Shown in pieces: positions 43,992 through 63,017 of a stretch of DNA of 64,000 nucleotides; positions within the stretch are counted from its first letter, which is position 1; every line of letters begins with the position of its first letter. The translations under genes and the position numbers were made by a program. The notes beneath the pieces were generated by a model. The model made no database searches. It had not been told where the DNA came from and saw nothing but the letters and a program-made list of their open reading frames with translations. The stretch lies in contig CALLAL010000021.1 of assembly GCA_938002255.1 (NCBI GenBank), positions 1 through 64,000 on the forward strand, read 5' to 3'. The stretch comes from an uncultured bacterium (GTDB lineage: Bacteria > Desulfobacterota > BSN033 > UBA1163).

Positions 43992-45122
43992 TTACAATGG
44001 AGAAAGCATCTCCACAAACGCCTGTATCCTGATCTTCAATTGGGCTTGAGAGGTGGCAGGGTCATCCACTTCAAGAAGGAGAGAGGGGATTCCTTTTGCC
44101 TCCAGGGCTTTTTTAAGATCCGGATGATCAAAATAGTGAGGCTCACAGTATTTGTAAAAGAGAAAGATGACGCCTCTGGCTTCTGCTTGTTCCACCTCTT
44201 GGATGAGCGTTTCAAGACGGACGTTTGCCCCTCCATGTTTGGTCGGGCAAAGACAAGAGGAGAAATATCGTTCGGTGAGGGCATCCATCGGATCAAGATC
44301 CTCCCGCGTCTTGAGACGGAGAAATCTGGCACCACTGCAGAGATCATCCGAGACGACCCATGCCCCTGTTTCTTCAATCATTGAAAAGTATGAAGGGGAG
44401 TGAGTAAGATTCCCGGACAGAAAAATCGGAACCCGAGTTCGAAGTTGCTCCTCTCGTTCCGGGACCTCCTCTAAGAGCTGAGTTAACAGGTCGAGGTATC
44501 GGGTACACTCCATCAGGTGTCCTGCACGGATGATGGAAGCGAAGTGATAGCCGGACATCCAGCCTGGGTGTTTTCGTCTCATCTGATAAAGGGTTCGAAT
44601 TTTCTCTCTCCGTTGATTAAAGAAATGGATAGATTCCCTCAGGTTTTGGGTTGTGATTGATCTGAACTGTTGACTCAGGAAGGCTTTTAATCGTTCGATC
44701 TCAGCCTTCAGATAGGGACGAGCGTGATCCGAAGAAAGATGGGTGGGCATCATGAAATTGAACTGAAGGAGATGATGATTTTGAAAAGCCCAGATATCCG
44801 AAAGTCCTTGCATGGTATCACAGGTATGAGAAAAGATCATCCCCTTTAAAAAATCAAGCTCTCCTCGAAGAAGGCTTTCCAATGAAGATTTCGCAAGATG
44901 GCAACAGTTGGAAGGAAGATGGGCCTGGACGTGGGCCATCTGGATAGGGATATCCATGAGACGAAGGGGCAACGCCCCCGCCGCATCAAGCATCTCTTCC
45001 GGGACATAAGGGCAGAAAAAACCAATCGGAATGCGATTCTTTGGAATCTGATCCCCCAATTCTTTGTAATCAAGGGAAGCCACTCTTTCAAACTCTTTAA
45101 GAAGATCGATTTTTTTCTCCAT
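43992..45122 (-). CDS. 2-hydroxyacyl-CoA dehydratase / benzoyl-CoA reductase-like subunit (smaller)
   Basis: Protein of 376 residues of the same family as the next gene downstream, in HgdA/BcrC-like position. Marks: IGFFCPYVPEEMLDAAGALPLRLM, SNCCHLAKSSLESLL, GMIFSHTCDTMQGLSDIW (the CD pair of the family) and the C-terminal VIFLFYKYCEPHYFDHPDL, followed by GIPSLLLEVDD. The cysteines in these blocks are the likely cluster ligands. A pair of unequal subunits in tandem is the standard component D layout. Function depends on an activator not seen in this window. Confidence 0.77.
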   Translation of the reverse strand: MEKKIDLLKEFERVASLDYKELGDQIPKNRIPIGFFCPYVPEEMLDAAGALPLRLMDIPIQMAHVQAHLPSNCCHLAKSSLESLLRGELDFLKGMIFSHTCDTMQGLSDIWAFQNHHLLQFNFMMPTHLSSDHARPYLKAEIERLKAFLSQQFRSITTQNLRESIHFFNQRREKIRTLYQMRRKHPGWMSGYHFASIIRAGHLMECTRYLDLLTQLLEEVPEREEQLRTRVPIFLSGNLTHSPSYFSMIEETGAWVVSDDLCSGARFLRLKTREDLDPMDALTERYFSSCLCPTKHGGANVRLETLIQEVEQAEARGVIFLFYKYCEPHYFDHPDLKKALEAKGIPSLLLEVDDPATSQAQLKIRIQAFVEMLSPL

Positions 45123-48767: not shown

Positions 48768-51700
48768 CTATGAAATCCCTAAGATGTTCTGGTGATATTC
48801 CTGGAGCGATTGAACGGACATCCCTTTTTTGAGAAGGGATTCAATTCCATTGACCACTGCTTCAGCACCAGAGAGGGTGGTGATAATGGGGATGTTGTGG
48901 GCCACGGCCTGACTTCGGATTGCCACCTCATCCTTTTTGGGTTTTTTACCACTCGGAGTGTTGATGACGAGCTGGATTTCACCGTTTTTCATTCGGTCCA
49001 CAATATCTGGTCTTCCTTCTCCTACTTTAAATATGGTCTGCACTGCAATCCCGTTGTTTGATAATACTTTGGCTGTCCCCCTTGTGGCTACCAGTTCAAA
49101 ACCAAGGTCAACCAACTTTTTGGCAACAAAAACAATAGATCGTTTATCTTTGTTCATCACGCTGATGAAGACTCTGCCGGTTAAGGGGATCAAGGTACCT
49201 GCCGAGATTTGAGACTTGGCAAAAGCCACCCCAAAGTCTGTGTCAATCCCCATGACCTCTCCAGTTGATTTCATCTCAGGACCTAAAACCGTATCCACTC
49301 CATAAAAGCGTTTGAAAGGGAAGACCGACTCTTTCACAGCGATGTGATGAATCTCAATTTCTCTTTCGATGCCGAGTTCTTGGAGTGTTTTACCCACCAT
49401 CACCTTCGCTGCCACCTTAGCCCAGGGTATTCCAGTGGCTTTGCTGATGAAGGGGATAGTCCTTGAAGCCCTGGGATTGACCTCAAGAATATAAATGATA
49501 TCATTTTTAATTGCATACTGAATGTTCATCAAACCCACGACCTGAAGTTCTTTGGCGAGAGCATAGGTCTTCTGCTTTAATTGTTCAATCAATTCGTCAC
49601 TCAGGGAGTATGGAGGGGTAACGCAGGCACTGTCGCCAGAGTGGATTCCGGCGGCTTCAATATGTTCCATGATCCCGGCGATGACGCAGATCGATCCATC
49701 TGAAACAGCATCCACATCAATCTCGATGGCGTCCTCAAGGAATTTATCGATCAGAATCGGGTGTGTGGAAGACGCTTCTACAGCTCGCTGGACAAATTGC
49801 TCGAGAGAGGCTTCATCATAGACGATCTCCATGGCTCTCCCACCCAGAACATAAGAAGGTCTCACGATCACCGGATAACCGATCTCTTCGGCGACCCTTC
49901 TCGCTTCTCCGAAGGACGTTGCTGTGCCATTTGGAGGTTGGATCAGACGGAGTTTATGAAGGAGAACCTGGAAACGTTTCCGGTCTTCAGCCCGGTCAAT
50001 ATTGTCAGGACTTGTCCCAATAATCTTAGCGCCAGCCTTCTCAAGAGGGACAGCCAGGTTAAGGGGGGTCTGTCCTCCGAATTGGACGATGATTCCATCG
50101 GGTTTCTCTGTTTCTACAATGTGCAAGACGTCCTCAAGGGTAAGGGGTTCGAAGTAGAGTTTATCTGAGATGTCATAGTCAGTGGAGACGGTCTCCGGGT
50201 TGGAGTTGACCATGATCGTTTCATAGCCAAGTTCCTTCAGTGCAAAAGAAGCATGGACACAGCAGTAATCAAACTCTACCCCCTGTCCAATCCGGTTGGG
50301 TCCTCCGCCGAGGATCATGATCTTCTTTTTTAATGAGACCTTTGCTTCGTTTTCTGTTTCATAAGTAGAATAATAGTAGGGGGTATAGGCTTCAAACTCA
50401 GCGCCACAGGTATCCACTAATTTATAAACAGGAGAAATGGATTTCTCTTTGCGTAGGGTTCGAATGGTATGCTCATCGACTCCAAGGAGATAGCCCAGCT
50501 GGACATCGGAAAATCCAAATTCCTTAGCCCTTCGAAGGAGTTGATCGGGGATACTGAGTTGATTCGCGGTACGGGTTCTCTGCCGGAGCTCGAGGTCTCT
50601 CATGGCTGATCCATAGGAACGAATTTCTGTTTCGAGGGTGACGATTTCCTGAATATTGGAGAGAAACCAAGGATCAATCCGTGTCAATCCATAAATCTCC
50701 TCCATCTTCATCCCGAGGAGAAAAGCATAGCGGAGATAGAAAAGCCTCTCAGCATTGGGGACCATCAATCGTTTTTTCACCTGTTCTATCATTTTTGAAT
50801 GATCGAAATCGGGATAGATTTCATCCCAGACAAGTTTATCCTTTCCATCTGCGCCCAACCCAAACCTTCCGATTTCAAGGGACCGGAGGGCTTTTTGAAG
50901 GGCCTCTTTAAAGGTTCTCCCAATCGCCATGGTTTCCCCAACCGATTTCATCATAACTGTAAGCGTTGGGTCTGCATCTGGGAACTTTTCGAAGGTAAAC
51001 CGAGGGATTTTAACAACACAATAGTCGATGGTGGGTTCAAAAGAGGCAGGTGTCTTTTTCGTAATATCATTGGGGATCTCATCGAGGGTATATCCCACAG
51101 CAAGTTTGGCTGCAATTTTGGCGATGGGAAATCCCGTCGCCTTTGAAGCCAAGGCAGAGGATCGGGATACCCTTGGGTTCATTTCAATGATTACCATTCG
51201 GCCATCTTCGGGTCGGACCGCAAACTGGATATTGGATCCCCCTGTTTCAACACCGATTTCGCGGATGACACGGATGGCGGCATTTCTCATCCGTTGGTAC
51301 TCTTTGTCCGTCAGAGTCTGGGCAGGAGCTACAGTGATACTGTCTCCGGTGTGAATCCCCATGGGGTCGACATTCTCAATGGAGCAGATGATGACCACAT
51401 TATCATTGAGATCTCTCATCACCTCAAGCTCATACTCCTTCCAACCCAGTACAGATTCCTCAATCAGAATCTCACCGATCATGCTCCATTCGAGCCCACG
51501 TGCTGCCATCTCTTCGAATTCCTGGATGTTATAAGCAATCCCACCTCCAGTTCCCCCCAATGTGAAACTGGGGCGAATGATCAGGGGAAAACCGATTTCC
51601 TTCGCCACCTCCAGGGCTTCAGACATCGAATAGGCTAATCCGCTTTTCGGAAGGTCGAGGCCGATTTTCTTCATGGACTCTTTAAAAAGGTTTCGATCTT

Positions 51701-52079
51701 CTCCTTTTTTGATTGCTTCGTATTTCGCCCCAATCATCTGAACGCCATATTTTTCGAGGACCCCTGATTCATAAAGGGCAACAGAAACATTGAGTCCAGT
51801 TTGACCCCCCAGGGTGGGGAGCAGGGCATCTGGCCTCTCTCGATCGATGATCTTCTCGACGATCTCTGGCGTAATGGGTTCCATATAGATTCGATCAGCC
51901 ATCTCAGGATCGGTCATAATGGTTGCTGGATTGGAGTTGACCAATACGACTTCAAAACCTTCCTCTTTTAAGGCTTTGCAGGCCTGGGTGCCTGAATAGT
52001 CAAACTCACAAGCCTGTCCGATCACAATGGGACCTGATCCGATGATGAGAATTTTTTTGATATCGGTTCGCTTGGGCAT
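48768..52079 (-). CDS. carB: Carbamoyl-phosphate synthase large subunit
   Basis: Cytoplasmic enzyme of 1103 residues, slightly longer than the E. coli protein (1073). Two ATP-grasp halves are visible; the first shows [17 protein letters not shown] and the second [18 protein letters not shown]-terminal MGS-like allosteric domain starts near [12 protein letters not shown]. It makes carbamoyl phosphate for pyrimidines and arginine, using ammonia channelled from CarA. It starts five bases after carA. Confidence 0.98.
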
Positions 52080-52084
52080 AACGG

Positions 52085-53227
52085 CTATTCTTTAAAGCGC
52101 TCCATCATCTTCACAAATTCACCGAACAAATCCTGGGTATCCTGGGGACCGGGTGAGGCCTCCGGATGGTACTGCACGGAAAAGAGAGGTAGTTTTCGAT
52201 GCCTCATTCCCTCAAGAGTCCGGTCATTGAGGTTGATCTGCGTCAGCTCGACCTCATCCAGATTCAGTGTGCCGGGATCTACAGCAAATCCATGATTCTG
52301 AGAAGTGATGAAGACCTTTCCTGTCCTCCTATCTTTGACGGGCTGGTTTGCTCCTCGATGACCGAATTTCAGTTTAAAGGTCTTTCCCCCCAGCGCAAGG
52401 CCCAGAAGCTGATGGCCAAGGCAGATGCCAAAGATTGGTTTCTTTCCAATTAATTTACGGGCGGTTTCAATGGCATAGGGAACGCCCTCTGGATCTCCAG
52501 GGCCATTGGACAGAAGGATACCGTCTGGATTAAAGGCAAGGACTGATTCGGCTGAGGTTGAGGCAGGAAAAACCGTTACCTCGCAGCCCCAATCCCTGAG
52601 CGAACGAAGGATATTGTATTTGACTCCGAAATCGACGACGACCACTCTGGGTTTAGAGGAAGAAACGGACCTTGGGAAATGCTGGGTTAAAAATTGGGTA
52701 TCATTCGCTTCGGACCATCGATAGGGTTTTTCACAAGTGACTTCCTTGACGAGGTCCCTTCCGATCAGGCCAGGGGAGGACCTGGCTTTTTCAACGAGGC
52801 GATCCCGATTAAAGTCTTCTGTTGAAAGAATGGCTTTCATGGCCCCTTTTTCACGGATATGTTTTGTAAGGGCCCTGGTGTCCATTCCTTCGACTCCCAT
52901 AATGCGATGCTCGATCAGGTAGTCAGAGAGGGACCCATCCGCACGCCAGTTGCTGAATCGAGAACAATTCTCTTTCATGACAAAGCCCTCCACCTTCGGA
53001 TTTTGAGATTCAATGTCCACTGCATTGATCCCATAATTTCCGATGAGAGGGTAAGTCATGATGACGATTTGCCCCTTATAGGAAGGGTCCGTCAGGATTT
53101 CTTGATAGCCTGTCATACTCGTATTGAAAACGAGTTCACCTGTTTTCTCTCCAGGAAACCCGAAGGAGGTTCCTTCGTAAATGGTCCCGTCCTCAAGAGC
53201 AAGGATGGCTTTGTGAATGGTCTTCAT
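52085..53227 (-). CDS. carA: Carbamoyl-phosphate synthase small subunit
   Basis: Class I glutamine amidotransferase of 380 residues. The N-terminal part reads [16 protein letters not shown]. The active site shows the nucleophile elbow [12 protein letters not shown] and the His/Glu pair in [13 protein letters not shown]. It supplies ammonia to CarB. A terminator-like hairpin and a small leader frame lie right before its start codon, so it may be regulated by attenuation. Glutamine for it could come from the glnA gene upstream. Confidence 0.97.
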
Positions 53228-53964: not shown

Positions 53965-56900
53965 TTAATGGTATCCCTCCAGTTCTCCTTTTGGAAGAAT
54001 CCATTTAAAATCCTCTGTCTTCATGGCCTTTAATTCTCCATGGATGGGAAGGGTGAGATGTCCGTTTTCCCGGGAGATACCAAGACCAAAAACCTTCTCC
54101 AGGGCCATCAAACGATTCATCACCTCCTCCCATTTGGAGGCGTCCATAGGTTTGGTTATACATCCCTTATACTGTACCTCGCTTAACATCCCTCGAGGAT
54201 CATAGAAGATGACCTCACCAGAAGAAGCACCTGCAAGGAGCTTGGCACCCCGATAAGGTGTTTCCATCAGACGGAGGTTTCCGTTATAATCCCGACAGAG
54301 ACCGAGCATGAGGATGGAACCTCCCATCAAAGCTTGACAGAGGTGTTCATGGGCGGTACCGACAATATTGACCTCTAACCCCGGTCCCCGTGGGTCACTG
54401 ACCGCACAGACCCAACCCCGGTCAACGACATTTCCAAGGATATTGAATTTCCCTCCCTTTGCAGAATATCCCGTCACTTTTCCCGCATCGCCATGGATGT
54501 CAAGTGTTCCAGAGTGCATCACCATTCCAGTGAAATTCTGGGCGTGTCCATGGACGCGGACATGGGTGCCCATATTGAAGGCTCCACAATACTCTCCCGG
54601 ACTTCCAAAGATGTCTAAAAGTGTACCTGAGGTGTCCCCGATTCCCATCCCCATCCCAATGCCTCGCTGTCCCTCCGTACGATAAACGATGAACCTGCGC
54701 CATCCCATATGATGAGCGTGGTCGAGAAATGGACTGAGGACCCGAGACGAATCAGTTCCCTCAGGACGGAACCCTCTTGCATCAACCACCAGCACCTGAT
54801 CAAACGTTTCGGGTCGTTTCAGATTTTCAGCTTCAGGTTGAGTAACTCGAATCATCCCGTCCGGGTGATTCAACTGATCAAGGAAAGAATCAATCTGCTG
54901 AGAAACAAGATGGATCAGAGTCCCCCTGTCCTTTTTGCCTGTGTTCCAACCGGGTAGATGATCATGGATTTGCGTTAACTCCTCGAAAGCCTGTAAAGGT
55001 GGGAGGGCATTGGCGATCTCCTCCAAAACTTTTTTGAATTGATAAAAACTCCAGTGGGGAAGATGCTTAGAAACGTAATCTGAAGGAGGGGACTCTAAAT
55101 CCAGCCGTGCATTGTCCCCAGAGGGGGAAGGTTCTACAGAAGGGAATTCACCACGGGGAATCTCGATTCGTTTCCAAAACTTATCCCGAACCTCATAGCC
55201 AGTGATCTCTCCCTGCTCGTTGTAAAAAACCCTGCTCACCATACCCGGGTTTACAGTAAAGGTGAGGGGAGCTACCGTGTTTTTGATGAACCCCAGTCGA
55301 TAAAGTTCTTGAAGACCAGCATCACATCCCTGTTTCTCAGAACAGATAATACTAACAAAATTTTCTCCATCATCATAGAGCATCGCCACATTCGGTCTGA
55401 GCAGAGAGGGATCGATGATGTCCAGACGTTCAATGACTCTCTGATAGGGATCGATTCTCCCACAGAGGTATTGATAGGGACCATCTGGGGCACTTTCCAG
55501 TTCGATTTCCTGAATCCTCTCAAAACGCTCTCGGACTTCCTCAGGCAACTGACTCAGTGTCCAACCGGTTGTCGGAGAGAATGATTCCACCAGTCCATCA
55601 AAAGGATAACGGAGGTATTGACTTAACAGGTGGAGTTTGAGTGAGGCAACTGCGGTGTCCGTTTGAGCGAGAGGAGTCAGGTTAAACTGGGAAACCCGAT
55701 TGAGCATGGTACGGTAGTTGGTGGTCTCTCCGTTATGGGTGAGGGCCGTGTGAAGTTCCGCAAAAGGGTGGGAGTTAAGCTGATCCACGACCGAACCCGT
55801 AGCCAGCCTCCGGTGAATGATGTTCACGGGGGCGTCTGGAAGCTTCCAGGGGATGTGGGCCCCATCACTTTTCCAACAACCCGAATTTTTTCCACACGAG
55901 AGCACAGCGGCCTGCTTTTTCTTCCCTTCGACATAATTCTCTTGTGTGATCTTTCGGCTCAGTCGGTAGATATATTCGTCTTCGGCTTCCCGAAGAAAAT
56001 CTAAATCATGTTGATAATTCTCTGTGTTTAAATGGGAATAACGAATCAACCTGGGTGGCCAGATTGAATCGTTCAGGAGTTCTTCTTTGATAAAATGATG
56101 GAGTTCATCCTGACGGACCCGCACAAAGAAAAGGAAGAGATCTCCAGGGTCGTTTTCTCCAAATGAACGGAAGTCCTTTTCTTCACCCTCCCCATTGTTT
56201 AGGTAAGGGATTCGACATTTTTCGAGATTCCCATCAAACCCATCCACTTCGAGGCCGTGAAAATATCGTTCCATCACCCCTGCAAGAAGTTGAAGACGTA
56301 TGGTCAACGTCGTCTGCCTTGCCCTTCTGCGGATCTCTTCTGGGTCCATATCCGGTTCCCGGTGTGTGTAATCCTCTTCAATCTGGGTCTGTGAAATTCC
56401 TTTCATCAAAAGATGGAGGGCATAATGGTTCATTCGGTGGGGATAACATCCGCCCTTCCATATTCCGACGCCGTCCATTCCACGGTTGGCCATTCGATCA
56501 AGCATGAGATCCATCACATGGCTCGGAACGGGATGGTTCGAGACAATAGCCGCCACCCCGCAGTCTGAAGGAGGAGGAGAATCCATGAGGGGAGAAGTTA
56601 AGCAAGACCGGTCTTCACTCGTCCAATCTGGAAGGGAAGGAGGAAAGGCTGTTTTCTCCATCCGTCGTCGTCTTCTCTGTTGGACTCTTTCTTCTAAGAG
56701 GGGCCATTGGATGAGATCATAGCGGCCCCGAAGTTCCCGAATGTCGTTCATCTCGAGGGCGGCGATCGCCCGGATGGTTTGGGCCTGGAGGATGACGCGA
56801 AAGTTGATAATCTGCTGGGCATTAAGCTCAACATGCCTGAGCAACTGCATCTTGGGTTCAATCGTTGAGATACCGCTTCGACATCCTGATTCACAATTTC

Positions 56901-59900
56901 GGTCCCGCACACAACCAATGGCGACAAGATCTGCCGTTCCTAAAATTATTCCATCGAGCCCCAGTGCGATCCCTTTAATGACATCTCCCCAGGTGCGGAA
57001 ACCACCACTACCCATGAAAATAACATACTCTCTCAACCCATCATCCATCAATTTTTCGTGGCAGAGAGGAATTGCATACTCCATATGCATTCCCATCTGG
57101 CCTTTTATGATATCGGGAGCTGCGCCTGTGCCTCCCCGGGGTCCGTCCAACCAAACCTCAATCACCATGGCATTGTCTTTTGCAATACGAGCCAATCCTG
57201 AGACAATGAATTCGATGTCCGGAGAAGGGGAGACCTTAATGCAAATCGCCGCACGCCGATTGATCATCCGAATGGCATCAATGAAAGCCTTTACGTCTTC
57301 AATGGAATAACAATTATGGAAAGGGAAGGGAGAGATCAGACTGATTCCTTCTGAAACCCCGCGAAGCCTGGACACCAGCCCAAAAACTTTTCTTCCCAAG
57401 AGATGCCCTCCCACGCCCTGTTTGGCCCCCTGGCTATAGGCAATGACCACCCTTCGGGCACGCCGAATCGTTTCCTTGGTCACACCGAAAAGCCCTGTCT
57501 TGAGTTGGGTCGAGACATAAGGTTCGTCGTCGGGTTTCACAATAGGGACATACTGGACCTTCAACGAAAGAGGATACTTTAGCAGTGATTTGGATAACGA
57601 CTCGAAGTGGGGATGTTCCATCTCCCGTAATCGCTGAATCAGATCCCCAATCGAAATGAGCGTTCTTTCTTCCAGGACCTCTGCAAGTCTGGCCACCTGT
57701 TGATCGGTGAGATCGAGGGGAGTCCATTTTGAGTCGAGAATAAAAATCGTTGGATATCCTCCCTCACCGGTGTCCAGCTGAGTTTCAAGTGCGCGAGTGG
57801 CAAGAACACGTGCGCGCCAAGTCCCCGGACCAATGGATCCAATAGACATTCCTGCTCCCAAAAAGGCCGTTTGGAGTTTTAAATTCTGGGAGAGGTAAAG
57901 CCCACTTGAAATATGATTTAATTTGTCCTCCGGGATAGTATCGGGGTTCTGGAGGAAGAGGAGGTTGATGGAATCAAAACCGTCTCCGAGATTTCCTCGT
58001 TCTTCCGCATGAGAGAGATAAAGGGTTCTCAAATCCCCACCTGCCATCCTTCCCACTGAGGCAATCAGTTTGGCGGGCCAGACATGATCGCGGTCAAAGA
58101 TGCGAAAGCAGGAAGGGTTAAGATGACAGTGATAAAACTGATGGGGATGGGGGGAAGGCCTGATCTTTTCTGTTAACTGATGATATCGCCAACCCAGAGG
58201 ATCTCCCTCCCGAAGCATCCGTGTTTTGTTTGTCCGTTGATTCCGTTTTAATCGCTCCTCATCATGGAAAATGTCATAAATTCTTTCCTCGAGGTCATCG
58301 AAGATGAGGAGTCGGTTCTCTTCCCCGACGGTCTTTTTGATGTCCTTGAATCCAGAGGCTCCCAAAACCTCAATAATCTGGACGTTCCAAACCCGAATCA
58401 GATGGGTGAGTCGCTTCGCGAGAGCGGTTCGGTCATAGGGGATGTGGAGTGGTTCCCTAGACCGGGATTTCTCGCGTGCCAGCGGATCGATAGCTAGAAG
58501 GATGGGCCAGTCAATCTTAATTCCATTGGCTCCCCGCTGGATGGTTTTCTGAGCGTCCGCGGCGGATCGGATACCCCCTGCGGCAACGATTGAGAACCTG
58601 TGTCTGATCTTCTTTTCTACCAGATAGCGGTGGACGGCTGGAATGGCATCGGTTGTTGGATAGTATCCCTTCTCTGGGTCGTAATCTGAGTCAATACAGA
58701 GGATATCAAAAGGGGATTGGGCCAGAAACTCAAGTTTCTTCTGGAGATCGGAATTCAGACGAAGGGTCTCATCCACATCCTCTCTCTCGATCTTCAAAAC
58801 CGCACACAGAACCGTTGATTCAGGAAAGATAGTTCTCAAATTGGACGATGTCTTGAGGAGATGATCCTCTGCCTCGATTTCGACAAGGTCGAATGGAAGA
58901 TCTTTGATCGATTCTAACTCGTTTTTTAATTCTTCAGGTTTGAGCCTGAGGATGAGGCAGTGGGTCCTGCCATCCAGAATTGCTCGAAAGCGTTTGACCT
59001 CTGCCAGCCGGAGCGTCACCCGAGTTCCACCTAATCGAGAAGCCTCCACCATGGCATCGAGGAGTTCCTCTTCTAATGTCATGGGCAAGAGGTCCAGGAG
59101 AATGGGAGTTTTCAGATGGATCAAGCAAGGTCTGGGGGTTTCAATTTTTTCTCCATCAAACTTCAGATATTTTGGCCGCCTGCCAAGTTGAACCGAAACG
59201 GCATCTTCTGTGCTTTCATAAAGAAGGTTTTGGGCAGGTCCCACAATATGAAAGTGGCCAAAACGGATCGAATCATTTCCTGACCCCCGATGAGGATCTC
59301 CCTGTCCGGTGCCGGAGACAGGGATCTTGCCTGTCGTGGCCTCGAGGTCAATCCGAGTAACCACTTCCCCGGTCCAATAAGGATCATCCATGCTCAAGTA
59401 TTCAGGGTGAAACTCAACGATCGTGGCTTGAATTCCTTTGGCAATTTGGGGACATCGCTCTATGCAAGCCCCGCAACCGCGGCAGAGCCCTTCATCGGCG
59501 ATGACCACGCGGCGCGGATCTTTCTCATCGCGCCGACGCACACTGTACATACAGGCGTCAACACAGGTGGCACAATTGAGACACCTTTCTTCCTCTATGG
59601 CTACATGGTATTTGGGAAACGTCTGTCGCTGTTCCCAGATCTTCTGATCAAAACCGGTTCGGATGACGTCAAGAAACCGATAAAAGTCAGGGCTCTTTTC
59701 AATTTCCTCAACAAAGTGAGTAATCTCTTGGATCGGAAAGTCGATGTATTGAGAGAAATAGGATTCAAGGTCTTTATAAAGCCGGCGATGATTTAGATGG
59801 ACCTGACACTCCTCGTCACAGCGGCCACAGCTGAGGCAGAAATAAAGGGGAAGGATGTTCGACCGTTCGATCTTTTTCGCCTCGATGGCTCTTTTCATGG

Positions 59901-61542
59901 CGAGAAGTTTTCCTCTCGCGGTAAAGGTTTCGTCCCGGGTTGCCTGATAGACCGGGCATTTTGAAACACAGTTTCCGCACTGGGCACATGAGAATATTTC
60001 CTTCGAAATTGTTTCAAGCCCCTGGGGAATCAGGGACGTTTTCCCACGAAGGGCGCTCTCGGGAAGCAAGGAGAAGAGCCTGAAGAGAAGCCACTGCATC
60101 GTAGAGAGTTCGAGGTTGAAGAGATCCGATTGAAAGATCATCTTCGTCAAAAGCCCCCCTCTCCCTGAGAGGGTAAAGAACTTGCCTGGATTGAGGATTC
60201 CACTTGGGTCGACTCGCTTTTTATATCGCAGCAGTTTTTTTATCGTCTCTTTGGAGTAGAGGTCTCGCAAAAAAGGGGCATTCCAGATGCCGAGGCCATA
60301 GGGTTTGCCCTGATAAAATTGAATGGCTAATCTAAGCATCATTGGAATGAGAATAAGGTCAATGTAGAAGAGAGAGTTCCTACGATCTGTGGGGATCAGG
60401 GTCAAAAAAAGGACTTGGTCTTGGCTGATGAAATGAGAAGAGGGGTAGAAGGTAAGACCTAGCCGTTTTCCCCATTCGCCGATTCTTTCTTCATACTCAG
60501 TCACCTTCTGGCCCGGGAGGATGACCTCTACGGCAAGAAGGGTAGGACCGAGGGGTTTGATCGACATGGGAAGAAATCGCTCGTCCCATAAAAAACGGGC
60601 TGAGGCTTCGTCAACCCTTCGAATCTTTTCTTTTTGGAGATAATCCTTAAAGAGATGGACCTGATCTGCTTCCGAAAAGGAAATGAGGAGGAGATGTTTA
60701 TCAGGAACGGTGAGTTTGCCGTCTGACTGTGCCTGAACGACTTCAGCCCATTCTCTGTGATAGATGATAAGGTCATGAGGTTTAATGGAGGGGTGATGGC
60801 TCAATCGTTGGGCAAAGGCATAGGCGTTTGATGTTTTTTCAAAAGGGATTAGAAAAGGAAACCATTGGAAGGGTTTTTTTCCGACCCTCAATACCGCCTT
60901 AACGATGATGCCCATCTGTCCTTCTGTCCCAAGAAAAAGGTCAATCTCAGGATCTTCCGGTCTTAAATCTTTTACTTTTCCATCCGGGGTGATGACCCTC
61001 AAGGAAATCAACTGGTTCTTCACTGGTCCGTAATGGTAGGTTCCAAATCCCATGCCCCCGGTGGCAATCCATCCAGCAAGTGTTCCTCCTTTCCCAGAAG
61101 TCATGGTAAGAAGGGTGAGGCCATGGGAAGCGAGTTTTGTGTGAATATCCGCAAAGCGGGCTCCAGGCCCCACGGTTAAACTCATGGTTTGAGGATCAAT
61201 CTCTATCGTATCCATCCGACTGAGATCGATCACGATTCCTCCATGGGTTGGCACGGCACCTCCATACCCCCATGTTCCAGCCCCCCTGACCGTTAGGGGG
61301 ATTTTATGCTGGGTTGCGAAGTGGAAGATTTTTAGAAGATCTTCTTCTGTGGATGGCTGGAGAACCAGGTCCGGGAGGCTCCTGAGGAACAGATCCCGAA
61401 TGAGAGGGGGAAGATCGACATTGAGGTCATTGCGATAGTATTCGAATTTGTCAGGCGATTCGATCGCCTTCAGGCCTGGATTGCGCTGTAAGAAATCACT
61501 AAGATATTTTTTCCAGGCCAATTTTTCTTTTTTCTGATTCAT
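53965..61542 (-). CDS. Giant fusion: FAD hydroxyacid oxidase, Fe-S modules and glutamate synthase domains
   Basis: One frame of 2525 residues from the ATG at 61542, nine bases behind GAGG. Order: FAD_binding_4 (RGAGTWGYGG near 90) and C-terminal oxidase half ending DPSGILNPGKF near 450; two 4Fe-4S motifs, C519/522/525/529 and C569/572/575/579; a ferredoxin, C654/657/660/664 and C687/690/693/697; a barrel-like part (about 735-1110, TGKIPVSGTGQGD near 737); a glutamate-synthase FMN barrel (about 1140-1635, GPRGGTGAAPDIIKG near 1466) with a cysteine trio C1544/1550/1554; a class II glutamine amidotransferase beginning at C1661 (CGVAAIV, later HRRLATGS and HNGETTN); and a GXGXG domain (about 2270-2420). 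The two CCG modules of GlcF are absent. It follows glnA on the same strand. Electrons from a 2-hydroxyacid driving 2-oxoglutarate plus glutamine to two glutamates is inferred, not shown. Confidence 0.85.
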   Translation of the reverse strand: MNQKKEKLAWKKYLSDFLQRNPGLKAIESPDKFEYYRNDLNVDLPPLIRDLFLRSLPDLVLQPSTEEDLLKIFHFATQHKIPLTVRGAGTWGYGGAVPTHGGIVIDLSRMDTIEIDPQTMSLTVGPGARFADIHTKLASHGLTLLTMTSGKGGTLAGWIATGGMGFGTYHYGPVKNQLISLRVITPDGKVKDLRPEDPEIDLFLGTEGQMGIIVKAVLRVGKKPFQWFPFLIPFEKTSNAYAFAQRLSHHPSIKPHDLIIYHREWAEVVQAQSDGKLTVPDKHLLLISFSEADQVHLFKDYLQKEKIRRVDEASARFLWDERFLPMSIKPLGPTLLAVEVILPGQKVTEYEERIGEWGKRLGLTFYPSSHFISQDQVLFLTLIPTDRRNSLFYIDLILIPMMLRLAIQFYQGKPYGLGIWNAPFLRDLYSKETIKKLLRYKKRVDPSGILNPGKFFTLSGRGGLLTKMIFQSDLFNLELSTMQWLLFRLFSLLPESALRGKTSLIPQGLETISKEIFSCAQCGNCVSKCPVYQATRDETFTARGKLLAMKRAIEAKKIERSNILPLYFCLSCGRCDEECQVHLNHRRLYKDLESYFSQYIDFPIQEITHFVEEIEKSPDFYRFLDVIRTGFDQKIWEQRQTFPKYHVAIEEERCLNCATCVDACMYSVRRRDEKDPRRVVIADEGLCRGCGACIERCPQIAKGIQATIVEFHPEYLSMDDPYWTGEVVTRIDLEATTGKIPVSGTGQGDPHRGSGNDSIRFGHFHIVGPAQNLLYESTEDAVSVQLGRRPKYLKFDGEKIETPRPCLIHLKTPILLDLLPMTLEEELLDAMVEASRLGGTRVTLRLAEVKRFRAILDGRTHCLILRLKPEELKNELESIKDLPFDLVEIEAEDHLLKTSSNLRTIFPESTVLCAVLKIEREDVDETLRLNSDLQKKLEFLAQSPFDILCIDSDYDPEKGYYPTTDAIPAVHRYLVEKKIRHRFSIVAAGGIRSAADAQKTIQRGANGIKIDWPILLAIDPLAREKSRSREPLHIPYDRTALAKRLTHLIRVWNVQIIEVLGASGFKDIKKTVGEENRLLIFDDLEERIYDIFHDEERLKRNQRTNKTRMLREGDPLGWRYHQLTEKIRPSPHPHQFYHCHLNPSCFRIFDRDHVWPAKLIASVGRMAGGDLRTLYLSHAEERGNLGDGFDSINLLFLQNPDTIPEDKLNHISSGLYLSQNLKLQTAFLGAGMSIGSIGPGTWRARVLATRALETQLDTGEGGYPTIFILDSKWTPLDLTDQQVARLAEVLEERTLISIGDLIQRLREMEHPHFESLSKSLLKYPLSLKVQYVPIVKPDDEPYVSTQLKTGLFGVTKETIRRARRVVIAYSQGAKQGVGGHLLGRKVFGLVSRLRGVSEGISLISPFPFHNCYSIEDVKAFIDAIRMINRRAAICIKVSPSPDIEFIVSGLARIAKDNAMVIEVWLDGPRGGTGAAPDIIKGQMGMHMEYAIPLCHEKLMDDGLREYVIFMGSGGFRTWGDVIKGIALGLDGIILGTADLVAIGCVRDRNCESGCRSGISTIEPKMQLLRHVELNAQQIINFRVILQAQTIRAIAALEMNDIRELRGRYDLIQWPLLEERVQQRRRRRMEKTAFPPSLPDWTSEDRSCLTSPLMDSPPPSDCGVAAIVSNHPVPSHVMDLMLDRMANRGMDGVGIWKGGCYPHRMNHYALHLLMKGISQTQIEEDYTHREPDMDPEEIRRRARQTTLTIRLQLLAGVMERYFHGLEVDGFDGNLEKCRIPYLNNGEGEEKDFRSFGENDPGDLFLFFVRVRQDELHHFIKEELLNDSIWPPRLIRYSHLNTENYQHDLDFLREAEDEYIYRLSRKITQENYVEGKKKQAAVLSCGKNSGCWKSDGAHIPWKLPDAPVNIIHRRLATGSVVDQLNSHPFAELHTALTHNGETTNYRTMLNRVSQFNLTPLAQTDTAVASLKLHLLSQYLRYPFDGLVESFSPTTGWTLSQLPEEVRERFERIQEIELESAPDGPYQYLCGRIDPYQRVIERLDIIDPSLLRPNVAMLYDDGENFVSIICSEKQGCDAGLQELYRLGFIKNTVAPLTFTVNPGMVSRVFYNEQGEITGYEVRDKFWKRIEIPRGEFPSVEPSPSGDNARLDLESPPSDYVSKHLPHWSFYQFKKVLEEIANALPPLQAFEELTQIHDHLPGWNTGKKDRGTLIHLVSQQIDSFLDQLNHPDGMIRVTQPEAENLKRPETFDQVLVVDARGFRPEGTDSSRVLSPFLDHAHHMGWRRFIVYRTEGQRGIGMGMGIGDTSGTLLDIFGSPGEYCGAFNMGTHVRVHGHAQNFTGMVMHSGTLDIHGDAGKVTGYSAKGGKFNILGNVVDRGWVCAVSDPRGPGLEVNIVGTAHEHLCQALMGGSILMLGLCRDYNGNLRLMETPYRGAKLLAGASSGEVIFYDPRGMLSEVQYKGCITKPMDASKWEEVMNRLMALEKVFGLGISRENGHLTLPIHGELKAMKTEDFKWILPKGELEGYH

Positions 61543-61694
61543 GTGTTTCAACCTCGTTTGAACACCCTAAGAGCGAGGGCGATCAAGCCCGTTTCATTAC
61601 CGGTTACGGCAACGGTCAATGAATTAAAATACGATCAATGCAACCTTCTATTTTTATGAACGATACAGGCCTCATTCCCCATCCCATAGGAGTT

Positions 61695-63017
61695 TTATAG
61701 GATCGGCAGATACTTCTCCAATTCAAACTGCGACACATGGGTCCGATATTGATCCCATTCTATCTTTTTATTCTCAATAAATTTTTGGAAGATGTGATCT
61801 CCCAGAGTGTCTCTCACCAATTCGCTCTGCTCTGTCAGTTGAACCGCTTCATAGAGGTTACCCGGTAGCGATTCAATCCCGTGCCTTACCCGCGCTTCCT
61901 CAGACATCTCGAAGATGTCTTCCTCAACAGGAGGAGGAAGTTCATAGCCTTTCTCAATCCCTTTAAGCCCAGCGGCAAGCATCACGGCAAAAGCTAAGTA
62001 AGGATTGCAGGCCGGGTCAGGGGATCGAAGTTCGATCCGCGTCGCTTTCTCCTTACCCGGTTTATACATGGGGACCCGAACTAATGCAGACCGATTTCTT
62101 CTTGCCCAGGCAATATAGACAGGGGCTTCATATCCGGGAACCAGTCTCTTGTAGGAGTTGACCCACTGAGAAGTGATGGAGGTGATCTCTTTGGAATGTT
62201 TCAGAATACCAGCGATGTAGGACTTGGCAAGTTTTGAGAGATGAAATTCATCTTTCGGATCAAAAAAGGCATTTTTGTCGCCCCTAAAAAGGGATTGATG
62301 GGTATGCATCCCGCTTCCATTCTGCTTGAAAATCGGCTTGGGCATAAAGGTGGCATAGACACCATGCTTGAGTGCGACCTCTTTAACTACGAGGCGATAA
62401 GTCATGGCATGGTCAGCCATGGTTAAGGCATCGGTATAACGGAGGTCGATCTCATGCTGGCTGGGAGCGACTTCATGGTGACTGTACTCAACACGAATCC
62501 CCATAGCTTCCAGGGTGAGAATGGTCTCCCGACGAAGTTCCGTCGCGACATCAAGAGGGGTAAGATCGAAATATCCTCCTTTGTCCAGAATCTGCGGAAT
62601 TCCTTCACTGCTTTTAAAATAGAAATATTCCAGCTCAGGTCCTACATAAAAAGTGTAGCCAAGATCCTGTGCCTTTTTGAGAGTTTTTTTCAAAACCCAC
62701 CGTGGATCGCCTTTATAAGGTGTTCCGTCTGGTTCATAAATATCGGCAAACATTCTGGCGACGGCATTTTCTTTGGGCCGCCAGGGAATGATCTGAAAGG
62801 TTTTTGGGTCTGGTTTAGCAATCATGTCACTTTCATCGATGCGCGCATAGCCCTGAATCGAAGAGCCATCAAATCCCATTCCTTCTTCAAGGGCGCCTTC
62901 CAGCTCATCGATGGTAATTGCAAACCCCTTGAGAAAACCGAGAATGTCTGTAAACCAGAGTCGAATGAATTTAACATCATTTTCCTTCGCCATCTTCAAT
63001 ACGGTCTCTTTGTCCAT
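61695..63017 (-). CDS. glnA: Glutamine synthetase, type I
   Basis: Enzyme of 440 residues that joins ammonia to glutamate with ATP. Marks: the start KFIRLWFTDILGFLKG, the metal site in YVGPELEYFYF, SGMHTHQSLF with its histidine, and WARRNRSALVRVP with the ATP-site arginines. The length and the ending ESLPGNLYEAV point to the GSI-alpha group, without the NLYDLPP adenylylation tyrosine loop. AAGGAGGAG precedes the ATG. It is followed by the glutamate-synthase fusion after 143 bases, so the two form a GS-GOGAT unit. Confidence 0.97.
   Translation of the reverse strand: MDKETVLKMAKENDVKFIRLWFTDILGFLKGFAITIDELEGALEEGMGFDGSSIQGYARIDESDMIAKPDPKTFQIIPWRPKENAVARMFADIYEPDGTPYKGDPRWVLKKTLKKAQDLGYTFYVGPELEYFYFKSSEGIPQILDKGGYFDLTPLDVATELRRETILTLEAMGIRVEYSHHEVAPSQHEIDLRYTDALTMADHAMTYRLVVKEVALKHGVYATFMPKPIFKQNGSGMHTHQSLFRGDKNAFFDPKDEFHLSKLAKSYIAGILKHSKEITSITSQWVNSYKRLVPGYEAPVYIAWARRNRSALVRVPMYKPGKEKATRIELRSPDPACNPYLAFAVMLAAGLKGIEKGYELPPPVEEDIFEMSEEARVRHGIESLPGNLYEAVQLTEQSELVRDTLGDHIFQKFIENKKIEWDQYRTHVSQFELEKYLPIL

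Follow-up and report, generated by a model that had tools for sequence, protein, structure and literature searches.

On the minus strand of the window (the whole stretch of 64,000 nucleotides that was analysed), a single open reading frame at positions 53965-61551 is predicted to encode a fused glutamate synthase of 2528 amino acids when read from a TTG start codon; an ATG three codons further on would give a protein of 2525 amino acids. All features of the gene are given below on this strand. Pfam placed its modules in the order FAD, Fe-S, FMN/synthase, amidotransferase and GXGXG. The FAD module consists of FAD_binding_4 (residues 60-196, positions 60964-61374; E 6.9e-35) and FAD-oxidase_C (residues 234-457, positions 60181-60852; E 4e-6), and is followed by a 4Fe-4S dicluster domain (Fer4_8, residues 520-585, positions 59797-59994; E 2.7e-12) and a second 4Fe-4S dicluster (residues 650-702, positions 59446-59604; Fer4_7 E 1.3e-10, Fer4_10 E 9e-10), the extent of which was taken from rounded Pfam borders of 656-702 and 650-701. 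As a whole the FAD module (residues 60-457, positions 60181-61374) resembles GlcD. The motifs GDGN and GEHG are typical of 2-hydroxyacid dehydrogenases of the GlcD kind; both were absent from all 12 fused proteins examined, and this motif check did not support assignment of the module to that kind. A G/A-x-P-Y-G-x-G-x-W stretch was present in the module in 11 of the same 12 proteins.

Region 716-1180 of the protein (positions 58012-59406) is tentatively designated the central domain, and was identified by BLASTP as the counterpart of a separate gene of approximately 475 amino acids, termed here the Fe-S/barrel gene, found in unfused relatives. It gave a weak second Pfam match to Glu_synthase and no clear match to the central domain of E. 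coli GltB by profile comparison, while sub-threshold Pfam matches to the central domain family (PF04898) were obtained in two of three distant fused proteins. In the unfused operons the Fe-S/barrel gene was seen to resemble the FMN gene, and the presumed central domain may thus be a copy of the FMN domain. The FMN/synthase domain itself (Glu_synthase, residues 1220-1598, positions 56758-57894; E 9.8e-73 for the whole protein) matched the FMN domain of E. coli GltB (hhalign, 99.8%) and retains the [3Fe-4S] cysteines (C-x5-C-x3-C) in 12/12 fused proteins examined.

Behind the FMN domain lies a variable linker of 51 residues (1613-1663, positions 56563-56715) which ends in P-S-D and leads directly into the cysteine of SDCGVAAIV, the putative nucleophile (codon 56562-56560). 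The initial annotation had described this cysteine as internal and preceded by about 1660 residues, as was confirmed here: numbering from the TTG makes it residue 1664, and numbering from the ATG makes it residue 1661, the figure used in that annotation. The proposed cleavage site is the Asp1663-Cys1664 bond. The class II amidotransferase region extends from the cysteine to approximately residue 2130 (positions 55162-56562, the end being approximate) and carries the catalytic set of a class II (Ntn, PurF-type) enzyme around the cysteine (Arg, His-Asn-Gly and Asp). The active-site motifs from RRLATGS (starting at residue 1914) to HNGE (residues 1939-1942; positions 55726-55812) had likewise been noted as kept, and both are present. 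The Pfam match to GATase_6 (residues 1898-1968) fell slightly below the curated cut-off (26.3 against 27 bits). A GXGXG beta-helix (residues 2312-2458, positions 54178-54618) was found by Pfam (E 3e-9) and by structure and profile comparison. Numbered from the cysteine as 1, residues C1, R27, H250, R252, T255, G256, H276, N277, G278 and D302 were invariant in all 63 proteins aligned (28 fused and 35 split). In the stretch SCGKNSGCW (residues 1885-1893, positions 55873-55899), two amidotransferase cysteines were invariant in 11 close relatives; conservation of the second was lost in the wider set.

An AlphaFold model of the last 929 residues was obtained with 28 sequences (mean pLDDT 76.2, pTM 0.79), in which pLDDT was below 50 over model residues 33-64, in the linker, and over residues 317-372, which include the HNGE loop; a strand begins directly behind the cysteine. 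VIA-align 2 matched the model to the glutamate synthases 7mfm, 6s6s, 1ofe, 2vdc, 1ofd, 1ea0 and 1llw (Z 20.6-21.6; rmsd 3.4-4.0 over 478-549 residues), near the C-terminus of which the end of the model falls. Model residue 65 (Cys1664) aligned with residue 1 of the mature glutamate synthases (1ea0, 1ofd, 6s6s), with residue 22 of 7mfm_G and with the first or second residue of PurF and GlmS chains, and from the cysteine on the Ntn fold matched GltS, PurF and GlmS/GFAT chains (Z 11.8-21.6). Going by the model, the amidotransferase and beta helix are those of GltS, placed in a different order along the chain. When the amidotransferase region was compared with E. coli GltB by profile, no match was clear (probability 1.6-17%), so that its kinship to GltB rests on the motifs and the model. 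The only solved structures matched by sequence, over 42-61 positions, were of the GlmS type or belonged to one further class II amidotransferase. Scores from Foldseek by itself were weak, the best being E 2e-4 for GlmS. A second model, of the FMN domain with the amidotransferase, reached a pTM of 0.51 and supports no claim made here.

Directly upstream of the fused gene is a GlnA-like (glutamine synthetase) gene (positions 61695-63017, minus strand), and downstream are CarA- and CarB-like (carbamoyl-phosphate synthase) genes (positions 48768-53227, minus strand), all named from their sequence. GlnA was found upstream in 11 of 14 Syntrophaceae-like fused loci and CarA with CarB downstream in 11 of 14; the neighbourhoods of the 22 more distant fused loci showed neither GlnA nor CarA/CarB, and seven of the 27 unfused loci had a GlnA nearby. 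Further along the window, positions 43992-45122 (minus strand) look by eye like a 2-hydroxyacyl-CoA dehydratase-type subunit. The fused gene is the only strong Glu_synthase match of its genome (224.7 bits, against 39.5 for the next match outside it), and GATase_2 (PF00310), which was matched in 12 of 14 control genomes, was matched nowhere in this genome at E 0.001. The genome also carries glutamate dehydrogenase-type genes, so the fused enzyme need not be its sole route to glutamate.

The fusion was present in 14 of the 17 genomes of the order (G001, G004 and G007 gave no match), with DCGVAA behind the FMN tail in all 14. A wider genome scan identified 36 fused loci. Of these, 14 are Syntrophaceae-like, with a best segment 72-85% identical, and 22 are more distant (36-53%) and carry titles that mention Calditrichota, KSB1, Gemmatimonadetes, Planctomycetota and others; all 36 are titled as metagenome-assembled genomes (MAGs). 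The scan used the patterns NRGMDGVG and [ED]FL[RQ]EAED, by which conservation of those residues is partly built in; the cysteine lies outside them. The distance from the FMN tail motif to the cysteine was 39-54 residues (51 in the window), in frame and without a stop, at 35/35 readable loci, the 36th (L045) beginning after the cysteine. Measured between stop codons, whole frames in the distant group were 2846-2953 residues long, with 1931-1993 residues preceding the cysteine, and the same domains in the same order were found in 3/3 distant proteins scanned. In the phylum to which the genome of locus L047 belongs, 15 of 40 genomes matched. No frame break was located between the FMN tail and the cysteine; those found elsewhere were N runs (G013/L036, L046) or single-base frame changes (G009, L028, L037), and were rejected as real gene splits. 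A search of the plasmid collection with the amidotransferase gave no match, and no description of the fusion was found among the titles and abstract openings of open-licence papers.

Searching 395 genomes of the phylum with a profile returned 125 matches, of which 13 were fused, approximately 97 lay in frames of 429-1009 amino acids and 15 were weak (E above 1e-13) and were left out as likely to be other amidotransferases. From the 97 or so unfused-type matches 36 genes were read, the other 61 or so lying outside the count. The separate amidotransferase gene is of approximately 880 amino acids, compared with the 865-residue fragment predicted for the fused protein. An FMN gene was directly upstream of it at 26 of 27 unfused loci, and upstream of that an Fe-S/barrel gene at 24 of 27 (the contigs of L089 and L092 stop at that point). 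The FAD/Fe-S gene stood upstream of the Fe-S/barrel gene at 4 of 27 loci; at L096, from the same class, all four genes occur in a row. At three of the 27 the Fe-S/barrel and FMN genes are already a single open reading frame. At L107 (G048), the exception, the amidotransferase gene was without an FMN-domain gene within 2.8 kb upstream. The genes of the unfused operon follow one another as the domains do in the fused protein, and the gene of the window reads as a glutamate-synthase operon (FAD/Fe-S, Fe-S/barrel, FMN/synthase and amidotransferase-GXGXG) fused in frame. In a tree of 63 proteins, built by a quick method and with split forms from one phylum only, fused and split forms fell on opposite sides of one branch, and since a single branch separates them the fusion may have happened once. 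Further genes were noted ahead of the unfused operon at L090 (5436-5852), L093 (12785-13555) and L098 (6634-7611); they include MvhD/FlpD-like, MetF C-terminal-type and MTHFR proteins, which suggests that fused and unfused forms do not have the same electron-entry partner.

The residue preceding the cysteine was compared in deduplicated sets, and was D in 15/15 Syntrophaceae-like fused proteins (the window included), N in 21/21 distant fused proteins and G in 36/36 unfused proteins. The search string used for the unfused genes required GG before the cysteine, and a separate start-codon survey that allowed other residues there still gave GG in 36/36. Mean entropy of the linker from -30 to -6 was 2.94 bits in the Syntrophaceae-like, 2.38 in the distant fused and 3.10 in the unfused proteins. 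The junction is thus constrained, a fixed -1 residue standing inside an otherwise variable linker; D, N and G at this position presumably all fit known Ntn self-cleavage sites.

The separate genes also encode a leader. An ATG was found 29-50 codons upstream of the cysteine in 36/36 distinct unfused genes and a start codon directly before it in none (0/36); in 7 of the 36 the sole candidate start was 30-42 codons before the cysteine, and in 8 some candidate lay within 10 codons of it. Annotated E. coli K-12 GltB has 11 residues ahead of the cysteine, and chain 7mfm_G has 21 by its own numbering. As unfused genes also carry one, a leader before the cysteine is not peculiar to the fusion, and the fused junction, judged from these sequences, is of a kind that already needed processing, with the preceding part lengthened.

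Cleavage before Cys1664 giving a glutamine-dependent enzyme is considered the best reading of these data, with a probability of roughly 75%. The precursor would fold and the Asp1663-Cys1664 bond would then be broken; the likeliest agent is the Ntn amidotransferase itself, its cysteine thiol attacking the preceding carbonyl, and a host protease is a less likely one. The freed cysteine would hydrolyse glutamine, and the chain of approximately 865 residues would remain bound to that of approximately 1663 residues and pass ammonia to the FMN site, where 2-oxoglutarate would be reductively aminated with electrons entering via the FAD and Fe-S modules. We infer the cleavage, the cleaving agent and the electron donor alike. 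A more speculative extension, which we hold to be somewhat doubtful, is that the entire redox half does duty as a propeptide for the glutaminase of the same enzyme: self-cutting by the Ntn domain at Asp|Cys (Asn|Cys in the Calditrichota-type proteins) might occur only after the FMN and Fe-S parts have folded, so that hydrolysis would be switched on only in the complete enzyme.

The initial annotation had left a choice between cleavage and an inactive amidotransferase with ammonia as substrate, leaning towards activity. Comparison with relatives that have a separate amidotransferase gene, which it had proposed, favours cleavage and activity, given the size of that gene, the leader before its cysteine and the shared catalytic set; the fixed -1 residue points the same way. 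An unprocessed domain, dead as a glutaminase in an enzyme using free ammonia, is regarded as unlikely: neither the cysteine nor the catalytic set varies among 28 fused proteins, drawn from two groups about 41% identical to each other, which would not be expected of a dead domain, the junction residue is fixed, and GlnA and CarAB are neighbours. On its side are that no sequence feature forces cleavage and that the genome has ammonia-using glutamate dehydrogenase-type genes, by which loss of the amidotransferase activity need not be fatal and any case made from necessity is weakened; the earlier lean to activity is to this extent qualified. The shared invariant residues support it. That the amidotransferase is active uncleaved, its cysteine still in a peptide bond, is judged very unlikely, although the fusion is conserved across many genomes, since in class II enzymes the cysteine's free alpha-amino group is held to take part in catalysis. 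Ntn self-activation as described in PMC9140057 also speaks against it.

Translation from an internal start near the cysteine, yielding a separate amidotransferase of approximately 870-900 amino acids with a short leader and leaving the long form as a by-product or a non-glutaminase, would match the unfused gene in product size, and the window does hold in-frame ATGs 8 and 33 codons ahead of the cysteine. Neither has a Shine-Dalgarno match by a loose test, however, and no conserved internal start was found among the 35 readable fused loci: 7 lack any ATG, GTG or TTG in the 50 codons before the cysteine, 24 lack an ATG there, and start positions vary. Some start with a loose SD-like match was found at 14/35 loci; several of these are, by reading, GTG codons in the valine of a conserved KERVD stretch. 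With its positions unconserved, an internal start was rejected as a general mechanism and seems highly improbable for the window as well. An assembly or sequencing artefact is scarcely credible even though the fused loci of the scan are all from MAGs, and assembly error was rejected, as the same fusion and junction recur in 14/17 genomes of the order and at 35/35 readable loci.

Class II amidotransferases are described as shedding only a few residues, and here the cysteine stands behind a multi-domain enzyme of approximately 1,660 to 1,990 residues. A lineage with a fixed junction residue offers a natural test of class II maturation and of whether it can be coupled to assembly, in a glutamate synthase that differs in domain order and in electron-entry module.

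Among known systems, the unfused Desulfobacterota-type operon shares the modules and their order, a leader ahead of the cysteine and the invariant residues, but differs in having separate genes, Gly at -1, approximately 30% identity over the amidotransferase chain and an adjacent FAD gene at only 4/27 loci. Canonical bacterial GltB, with the order amidotransferase, central, FMN and beta helix given in PMC8097209, has a homologous FMN domain, and its GXGXG and amidotransferase folds align with those of the model, Cys to Cys1; in the fused protein, unlike GltB, the amidotransferase lies between FMN domain and beta helix and not at the N-terminus, and the genome is without GATase_2. Archaeal glutamate-synthase domains are likewise described in PMC8097209 as separate reading frames. 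A review (PMC9140057) describes the few residues before the cysteine in MEROPS family C44 as removed autocatalytically, and the central cysteine of the PVA subfamily of Ntn hydrolases (acid ceramidase, NAAA, PLBD2) as giving, from a self-cleaving precursor, two chains which remain together. The likeness to the latter is one of working only: these belong to another family with other substrates, and in the examples given there the cysteine is at approximately 126-249 with no multi-domain redox enzyme before it. By this analogy the fused protein would join the autocatalytic trimming of class II amidotransferases with the two-chain behaviour of a central cysteine.
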